This document shows positions 8,071 through 20,188 of a stretch of 32,259 bases of DNA, piece by piece (the stretch's first letter is position 1; every line of letters starts with the position of its first letter). The stretch covers positions 1 through 32,259 of the forward strand of contig VGZJ01000035.1 of assembly GCA_016872595.1 (NCBI GenBank), given 5' to 3'. The stretch comes from Planctomycetota bacterium (lineage in GTDB: Bacteria; Planctomycetota; Planctomycetia; Gemmatales; Gemmataceae). The notes under the pieces are model-generated. The model saw only the letters and a list, made by a program, of their open reading frames with translations. It searched no databases and had not been told where the DNA came from. Both the position numbers and the translations under genes were made by a program.

Positions 8071-8090
8071 CGAAGCCGCTCGCGGCTTCG
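8071..8090. terminator. Perfect short hairpin after the DUF1571 gene
   Basis: cgaagccg-ctcg-cggcttcg. Confidence 0.45.
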
Positions 8091-8153
8091 CGCGTTGGTT
8101 GGCTCACCCCTGAATGATCGCTCCCAAGATGCCGCCGATCACCGCGCCGTCGT

Positions 8154-8242
8154 TGCGCGCCCCGGCGTGCGCGGCGTCCACGAACGGCAAGAGTACCTTA
8201 CTCTACCCCGCCGGTGCGCGCCCCGGCGTGCGCGGCGTCCAC
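8154..8242. repeat. 28-bp direct repeat (8154-8181 and 8215-8242), product of a 61-bp tandem duplication
   Basis: tgcgcgccccggcgtgcgcggcgtccac occurs identically at both positions. Confidence 0.9.
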
Positions 8243-8707
8243 CTTCTTCTTCATCCGCTCCTTGAACGCCTTCGCACTCTCGAGCTTGCCGAACGCGGCC
8301 TCCGGGCCGGCGGCGTCCGCGGTCGCCGTCTCGCCGGTCTCGATGAGCGCCCGGCACTTCGGACACTGCGCCTCCGGCGTGCCGGCCTCGAACTCGACCG
8401 ACACTTCGCGAAAACACGCGAGACAGGTGACGCGGAGGCTCTTGATTTCGACCGCGGTCTGGAGCGCGACCGACTCCGGGTCGAGCGACAGCGGTTGTTG
8501 AGCGGCGGGCGCGAACGGGTTCTGCACCGGGGTCGGTGGCGGCAGCAGGCCGGGCACGGCACTCGCGGCCCACCAGTGCGGTTGGCCGACGAGGTTGAGC
8601 TGGTCGGTGGGGAAGATGCGGCCGGCGCGGGCCGACTCCGCGAGTTGCGCGTCCGTGACCGGGCCGAACACCTGCCCATTGCGCGAAAGATACCACTGCC
8701 GATCCAT
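8198..8707 (-). CDS. GYF_2-domain (DUF4339-like) protein with altered C-terminus
   Basis: MDRQWYLSRNGQVFGPVTDAQLAESARAGRIFPTDQLNLVGQPHWWAAS; CLAC...CPKC zinc-ribbon-like Cys pairs. Confidence 0.82.
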   Translation of the reverse strand: MDRQWYLSRNGQVFGPVTDAQLAESARAGRIFPTDQLNLVGQPHWWAASAVPGLLPPPTPVQNPFAPAAQQPLSLDPESVALQTAVEIKSLRVTCLACFREVSVEFEAGTPEAQCPKCRALIETGETATADAAGPEAAFGKLESAKAFKERMKKKVDAAHAGARTGGVE

Positions 8708-9570: not shown

Positions 9571-9631
9571 CCCGGCCTCCGTGCGGCCGGAAGCTCGACC
9601 TGTGGGATAGCCCCGGCCTCCGTGCGGCCGG
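9571..9631. repeat. Duplicated hairpin-forming element upstream of groES
   Basis: cccggcctccgtgcggccgg at 9571-9590 and again at 9612-9631; each contains the inverted arms ccggcc/ggccgg. Confidence 0.7.
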
Positions 9632-15853: not shown

Positions 15854-16948
15854 CTAGGCGGCGATCTTCAGCGGCGCGAAGCCGGTGGCGCGCTTGCGGG
15901 CCGGGCCGTGGAGCATGATCTCCAGCCCGTTTACGATGCGGTCCGGGCCGCGCCCGTCGAACGTGTTCCGCGCGCAGCGCGTCATGCTCTTGCGCTCCAT
16001 CGCGTCGTCGTGCAGCAGGTCGACCGCTTCCTTCAACTGATCGAAGGTCACGGCGTCGGCGCTGCCGAGGTGCGTCGCGACGCCGTCCTCGTCGAGCCGC
16101 TTAGCGTTGCCCGCGTGCCGCCGCGTCTGGCTCAGGATCAGTTGCGGCACGCCGACCACGCACAGTTCGGCCGACCACGCATCGCCGCTGGTGAGCGCGA
16201 AGTGGACGCGCACCAGCCGCGTCATCAGTTCTTTCGTCTCGGTCACGACTTCGACCCGGCCCTTGCTGCCGTCCGCGAGGTCGAGCATGTCGTCGTAGCG
16301 CGGGTGGTGCGTGCGGGCCGTGACCGTCACCTTCGACACCTTGTCCATCTCCAGAAGCTGTTCCGTGCGGGTGATCGCTTCGCCCGCGAGGTCGTCGTCG
16401 CCCATCGCCACGAGCGCGCGGAACGGCATCGGCGGCTCGACCGCGCGAATGGTGCGCTGGCGGCGGAAGATGCCGCGGCACAGCGCGTAGCGGTGGCCGA
16501 GCAGGAGCTGACACCCCGGTTCGACGCGGAACGCCTTGCGCGACGGATACAGCAGCGGGTTCACGACGAGATCGGCGGGGAACTTCATGTCCGCGGTGGA
16601 GTCGAAGCACATCACGAGCGCGCCGGTCTTCTTCAGCTCGCGCACGTAGTCGGCGGTGTAGTTCGTCCCGGCGAGCACAACGGCCGCGGCCTCGCGCTTG
16701 CGCACTTGGGCGATGGTGGCTTCGAGGTCGCCGGGCGCGCCCATCGGCTGCTCGGCGGGCGTCCAGTCGTTGTTGCCCCGGTTGATGACCGTGGCGAGCG
16801 AGAGCGGGTCGAGGTAGCTGAAGAACTGGGTGCCGCGCCGCCGGCGCTGAAGGGCCGCCGCGAGAGACAGGCACTGGTACAGCGGCTCCCAGCCGTGTTC
16901 AGTAGTGCCGTCGCAGCGAAACAGAATGGGGCCACGGGTCGCGTCCAT
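15854..16948 (-). CDS. PseG-like / GT28-like nucleotide-sugar hydrolase or glycosyltransferase
   Basis: MDATRGPILFRCDGTTEHGWEPLYQCLSLAAALQRR; VVLAGTNYTADYVRELKKTGALVMCFDS; C-terminal SGDAWSAELCVVGVPQLILSQTRRHAGNAKRLDEDGVATHLG. Confidence 0.7.
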   Translation of the reverse strand: MDATRGPILFRCDGTTEHGWEPLYQCLSLAAALQRRRRGTQFFSYLDPLSLATVINRGNNDWTPAEQPMGAPGDLEATIAQVRKREAAAVVLAGTNYTADYVRELKKTGALVMCFDSTADMKFPADLVVNPLLYPSRKAFRVEPGCQLLLGHRYALCRGIFRRQRTIRAVEPPMPFRALVAMGDDDLAGEAITRTEQLLEMDKVSKVTVTARTHHPRYDDMLDLADGSKGRVEVVTETKELMTRLVRVHFALTSGDAWSAELCVVGVPQLILSQTRRHAGNAKRLDEDGVATHLGSADAVTFDQLKEAVDLLHDDAMERKSMTRCARNTFDGRGPDRIVNGLEIMLHGPARKRATGFAPLKIAA

Positions 16949-17300
16949 GCGCAACACTCCTCCACAACCTTGGGGGTGTAACGGCGCGCGGGCGCACTCG
17001 CGAGAGAGTACACGTCGCGCGGTCCGGTGGTGCGGAGGGGGGCACACGCACGACTGGCGCGCGGGCGCGTCTCGACACCTCTTCTCCGGGCGGGATCATT
17101 GCTGACCCCGTACGACGCGCCTTCGGGTTCCGGTCCGTTGGCGCGGCGTGCTCGCTCGAAGGGTTCCGGTCCTCCGACCGAGCGGGGCGGATGGTAGTTC
17201 AGAATCTTCGCAACCGACAAGGCCATTTTTTTCGTGCCGTGCGATCGTCGCGTGCACAGGGATTTCCAGCGGTTCCGCACGGGGGTCGGGTGCGCGGCGC

Positions 17301-17314
17301 GTTCCACGTGGAAC
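17301..17314. promoter_or_regulatory. parS site 1
   Basis: Perfect palindrome gttccacgtggaac, matching the bacterial parS core (GTTCCACGTGGAAC class). Confidence 0.9.
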
Positions 17315-17356
17315 GTTTGCGCAGATTCGCGCGGCCGTAGCGGTTCGGCCGACGGC

Positions 17357-17370
17357 GTTCCACGTGGAAC
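17357..17370. promoter_or_regulatory. parS site 2
   Basis: Second identical gttccacgtggaac, 56 bp from site 1. Confidence 0.9.
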
Positions 17371-17421
17371 GCCGCACATCCGGCACCACCGATTCCCCTT
17401 TCCCCAACCGCGGAGATTGCT

Positions 17422-20113: not shown

Positions 20114-20188
20114 CGGGGTGTAGCGCAGCCTGGTTAGCGCGCCTGCCTTGGGAGCAGGAGGTCGTGGGTTCGAATCCCGCCACCCCGA
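20114..20188 (+). tRNA. tRNA-Pro (anticodon TGG)
   Basis: cggggtg acceptor pairs with caccccg; anticodon arm cctgc-cttggga-gcagg gives TGG; T-arm gtggg-ttcgaat-cccgc; CCA not encoded. Confidence 0.95.

Follow-up and report, generated by a model that had tools for sequence, protein, structure and literature searches.

The GYF-domain gene and the repeat at its 3' end

The window analyzed here is a stretch of 32,259 nucleotides that makes up the whole of contig C35 in a draft planctomycete genome (6.8 Mb, 590 contigs). Its minus strand carries a gene for a protein of 169 amino acids (Table 1), in which an N-terminal GYF_2 domain (PF14237, residues 5-54, 36.3 bits against a curated cut-off of 25.8) precedes a CxxC...CxxC ribbon. 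The Pfam match bears out the GYF-domain assignment that had been made in a first-pass annotation based on the bare sequence. Near the 3' end of this gene, at approximately 8147-8242, one sequence is present in two direct copies that lie 61 bp apart from start to start. The exact repeat has the plus-strand sequence TGCGCGCCCCGGCGTGCGCGGCGTCCAC. The first-pass annotation had described a match of 35 bp between the copies; 28 bp of this are indeed identical, but the additional 7 bp include two mismatches.

The structure had initially been interpreted as a tandem duplication of 61 bp, an interpretation that does not survive comparison of the two copies. Only 28 bp are exactly duplicated, and the remaining 33 bp resemble neither flank; the unit is thus a repeat-insert-repeat structure, in which 28 duplicated and 33 inserted base pairs add up to 61 bp. 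A 26-bp core of the insert occurs once in the genome, even when up to three mismatches are allowed. The window contains no further copies of the 28-bp repeat and only this single insert. Tandem Repeats Finder does not call the structure, as would be expected if the insert is unique. No other exact close direct repeat in the window is as long as the 28-bp pair. In 60 simulated sequences (order-3 Markov) close repeats reached at most 21 bp, with 12-15 bp or no repeat at all being the usual result.

Table 1. Features at the 3' end of the GYF-domain gene (window coordinates)
Feature	Position	Strand	Basis or remark
GYF_2-domain gene, 169 aa, present end ...VDAAHAGARTGGVE	8198-8707	-	ORF; Pfam GYF_2
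28-bp repeat, copy 1	8215-8242	-	Exact direct repeat; gene-body side
33-bp unique insert, candidate misplaced spacer	8182-8214	-	Resembles neither flank
TAA stop carried by the insert, ending the short form	8198-8200	-	Sequence and ORF end
28-bp repeat, copy 2	8154-8181	-	Exact direct repeat; old-tail side
Putative displaced C-terminal tail NDGAVIGGILGAIIQG with TGA stop (8104-8106)	8104-8154	-	Codon-usage score
Perfect hairpin GAAGCCGC-TC-GCGGCTTC	8072-8089		14 bp beyond the old stop; read from sequence

Several other structured sequences are found elsewhere in the window. Upstream of a groES-like gene, at 9571-9631, there are two copies of a partly palindromic 20-bp sequence, CCCGGCCTCCGTGCGGCCGG, which lie 41 bp apart. 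At 17299-17371 a palindrome that is perfect except at its centre, GCGTTCCACGTGGAACG, occurs twice, 56 bp apart, and looks like an operator pair. A tRNA gene lies on the plus strand at 20114-20188 (Rfam RF00005, 69.8 bits).

A probable displaced C-terminus

The minus-strand reading frames are those originally described: the first copy yields ...KKKVDAAHAGAR-TGGVE-stop, and the second yields VDAAHAGAR-NDGAVIGGILGAIIQG-stop. The first copy also encodes VDAAHAGAR, which is followed there by TGGVE and the TAA of the insert. When scored against the codon usage of the genome, the 16-codon tail obtains +8.5 bits in its own frame and -22 and -20 bits in the other two; for reference, the mean is +8.5 (sd 6.3) for real genes and -16.4 (sd 8.6) for shifted frames. 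The score of the 33-bp insert is negative in every frame. Since the codon usage of the tail is that of real genes, a truncation is supported, and the earlier suggestion of an older C-terminus that was displaced by an insertion of a length not divisible by three, but is still readable, holds up in this respect. The first-pass annotation regarded this glycine-rich hydrophobic tail as a possible membrane anchor. The net insertion of 61 bp has probably shifted the reading frame and supplied the TAA codon, leaving a protein that ends in TGGVE instead of NDGAVIGGILGAIIQG. More speculatively, the TAAGG within the insert, located five bases before a TTG codon, could let ribosomes restart and produce a tail peptide of 28 residues. 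The hairpin downstream of the old stop codon is possibly a terminator shared by two convergent genes; it has no T run, and it was not called by a terminator scan.

No ortholog combining the GYF domain with the CxxC ribbon was detected among 98 relatives, 95 genomes of the family and 392 genomes of the phylum, and GTDB contigs contained no ortholog of either the protein or its tail. The searches for the displaced tail returned no homologue, and the matches that were inspected were rejected as unrelated reading frames. Congeners retain the flanking lipoprotein and response-regulator genes, and in the 17 congeners compared no GYF gene was recognized at the syntenic site after the lipoprotein gene. 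The GYF gene thus seems to be lineage-specific, since neither that site nor the sample of the phylum yielded a recognizable ortholog.

Type I-E CRISPR machinery in the same genome

In type I-E CRISPR systems the protospacer measures 33 bp and one base of the 29-bp repeat comes from the protospacer; this base is the G of the AAG PAM, and hence 28 bp are duplicated (PMC10011333). Each spacer acquisition adds 61 bp (PMC11788318). Because 28 duplicated and 33 inserted base pairs are the geometry of type I-E integration, the genome was searched for Cas1. Contig C348 encodes a type I-E operon consisting of cas8e, cas11e, cas7e, cas5e, cas6e, cas1e and cas2e, all of which exceed their NCBIfam cut-offs (cas1e, TIGR03638, 370 bits; cas2e, TIGR01873, 60.6 bits). 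The encoded Cas1e has the motifs MEG, GFIHTG and YDIADLYK, which we take to be the catalytic motifs of the family. The composition of this contig is not unusual for the genome. A CRISPR repeat, ATGCTCCCCACGCTCGTGGGGGTGAACCG, follows the cas operon at the end of the contig; the stretches of the genome that were examined did not yield the remainder of the canonical array, and the spacer length of this strain is therefore assumed.

The cas operon contains one further repeat-like sequence. A degenerate version of this CRISPR repeat (L166 on C348, 4911-4936, five mismatches in 26 positions) is located between cas6e and cas1e, just upstream of the likely start of cas1e, and folds well (z = -3.8). 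It may be a relic, or it may take part in the regulation of cas1e.

In minus-strand orientation, the 28-bp repeat of the GYF gene matches the CRISPR repeat of the genome in register at 16 of 28 positions, a level reached by 0.35% of genomic 28-mers on either strand. Its predicted folding has z-scores of +0.9 or +0.6 versus -1.8 for the CRISPR repeat, and in this folding test it does not form the kind of CRISPR-repeat hairpin that Cas6e uses. Without a CRISPR-type fold in the repeat, a working crRNA is unlikely, and what persists at the GYF gene is probably a dead scar that supplies no working crRNA.

A second insertion in a porin gene

A scan for isolated direct repeats with periods of 33-150 covered 1.85 Mb of unmasked sequence (27% of the genome), with runs of N masked; the 21 smallest contigs sampled consist of N sequence. 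It returned 27 isolated repeat pairs, and only two of these combine an exact 28-bp repeat with a period of 61-62: the pair in the window and one on contig C102. Judged by period and sequence, nearly all of the other pairs look like in-frame coding repeats with periods divisible by three, palindromic intergenic repeats or a tRNA pair. The expected number of further pairs of this kind arising by chance is about 0.01-0.02 (approximately 0.05 for a length of 28, multiplied by approximately 0.012-0.018 for the period and by 20 pairs), a rough estimate from how the other exact pairs are distributed and not a formal test.

On C102 the repeat copies start at 15920 and 15982 (L188, span 15920-16009), and the 28-bp exact repeat and a 34-bp insert make up 62 bp. 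Mismatching bases bound the 28-bp repeat at this site as they do at the GYF site. The insertion interrupts a gene of the Porin_O_P family, whose 5' piece corresponds to positions 21-176 of the profile and whose 3' piece, in another frame, corresponds to 172-353. The same protein is encoded by a single uninterrupted frame in three relatives, including Gemmata sp. IIL30, so by sequence comparison the insertion on C102 is derived, and it is frameshifting. In this porin search the closest named relative of the genome was a Gemmata. Aligned to the intact proteins of the relatives, the two pieces show an overlap of 5-7 residues, which is what a short duplication of the target would produce. Read on the plus strand, the GYF insert (GAACGGCAAGAG...) begins with G, as does the porin insert, which is a weak point of agreement.

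Off-target spacer integration as a candidate mechanism

Taken together, the geometry of the locus, the cas genes of the same genome and the insertion of matching geometry on C102 indicate that the GYF gene probably carries a gene-truncating scar left by off-target type I-E spacer integration, a so-called neo-CRISPR event. Under this model, the type I-E Cas1-Cas2 complex would have captured fragments of 33-34 bp as prespacers, and one of these, 33 bp long, would have been integrated not into the CRISPR array but near the end of the GYF gene, on its 3' side. The fragment would be joined to two nicks on opposite strands, 28 bp apart, and gap filling would then copy the 28-bp target on both sides, leaving a neo-CRISPR unit with one spacer: a repeat, a 33-bp spacer and a second repeat. 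For both insertions, we infer Cas1-Cas2 as the maker and mobile elements as the source of the insert.

This explanation was formed after the geometry had been seen, and the insertion on C102 is its sole independent test. Some observations argue against it. The porin insert is 34 bp long (the range of type I-E spacers is 31-34 bp plus one base; PMC10011333), and the porin target is unlike the CRISPR repeat of the genome, with 11 of 28 positions matching, which is not unusual. In addition, a relative that lacks the 28/61 geometry, G011, has a repeat-insert-repeat structure of another size. This structure (L057, 930-1031) consists of an exact 33-bp repeat flanking a 36-bp insert and lies outside any obvious gene; the CRISPR unit of the same relative (L162) has 37-bp repeats and a 36-bp spacer. 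The structure in G011 possibly represents misplaced integration by another CRISPR subtype, or it may caution that structures of this type also arise by other processes.

A search of IMG/VR, INPHARED and PLSDB found no protospacer for either the GYF or the porin insert. Unmatched spacers are usual for poorly sampled hosts, and this result consequently carries little weight in either direction. Five 20-mer matches were recovered for the porin insert; they extend to only 23-25 of 34 bp, look like chance similarities between GC-rich sequences and were rejected.

Alternative explanations

The most serious alternative is an error of replication or repair, in which a staggered break or a template switch was filled in, so that 28 bp were copied with 33 bp of filler between them. 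Duplications with filler DNA are generally seen among the products of break repair, and the porin insert shows weak local similarity, albeit at a level that 13 of 500 random segments equal and in one of several comparisons. However, a repair process offers no reason why the duplicated length should be 28 bp on both occasions and the inserts 33 and 34 bp, and no local or genomic template was found for the GYF insert. A search of the genome for Ku was negative, and Ku-mediated end joining was rejected on this basis. Repair with filler is accordingly considered unlikely, although it remains the strongest competitor of off-target integration.

An assembly artefact, in which a false loop was created at a 28-bp overlap, has to be considered in any draft of 590 contigs. 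The core of the GYF insert, however, has no second occurrence in the assembly even with three mismatches allowed, so the reads must have carried it, and one geometry is common to two unrelated places. An artefact is thus improbable, more so than a repair error.

The tandem duplication of 61 bp proposed at the outset, with copies that diverged later, accounts for the period of 61 bp, but divergence cannot be so uneven as to leave 28 bp identical and the adjoining 33 bp unlike either flank, and this explanation is very improbable. Least credible of all is that TGGVE is the natural end of the gene and the second copy a chance intergenic sequence: the longer form has been seen in no ortholog, but an exact close repeat of 28 bp is far beyond chance, the tail is coding-like where the insert is not, and the porin case shows such an insertion to be derived.

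Comparison with known systems

If off-target integration produced both insertions described here, CRISPR adaptation would be a measurable natural mutagen, with two gene-interrupting scars and the enzyme in the same genome. Extrapolated from the 1.85 Mb scanned, two scars would correspond to about seven genome-wide, with wide uncertainty. It is possible, though as yet a tentative proposal that falls somewhat short of an even chance, that type I-E adaptation is a recurrent chromosomal mutagen in this wild planctomycete, inactivating genes or giving them new ends by misplaced integration. Any genome, whether or not it has a type I-E system, can be screened for the signature: an exact 28-bp repeat with a unique insert of 33-34 bp and a period of 61-62 in a gene that is intact in relatives. 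If the proposed origin is correct, this 28/61 signature could be used to count misplaced integrations across genomes.

The protein affected resembles other GYF_2 proteins in its N-terminal domain and differs from them in the ribbon that follows and in a C-terminus for which no ortholog was detected. Compared with a canonical type I-E array, the GYF structure has the same 28-bp unit, 33-bp insert and 61-bp period, and its repeat has the partial identity to the CRISPR repeat of the genome noted above. Unlike such an array, it has one spacer, lies inside a coding gene away from cas genes and leader, and has a repeat that lacks the stable hairpin of the genomic one.

Nivala, Shipman and Church reportedly described in 2018 non-canonical spacer integration in Escherichia coli overexpressing Cas1-Cas2. 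Off-target integration by type I-E Cas1-Cas2, giving rise to neo-CRISPR loci, is also described for E. coli in PMC11788318 and PMC9456107. The GYF structure resembles these loci in that a spacer-sized fragment lies between two copies of its target, outside an array, and that the genome encodes cas1e and cas2e. It differs from them in its setting, a natural planctomycete draft genome in place of E. coli overexpressing Cas1-Cas2, with integration deduced from sequence instead of being observed, and in its consequences, since here one gene is truncated and another is frameshifted. The GYF insertion most likely represents, in nature, a process that has been described in laboratory work.
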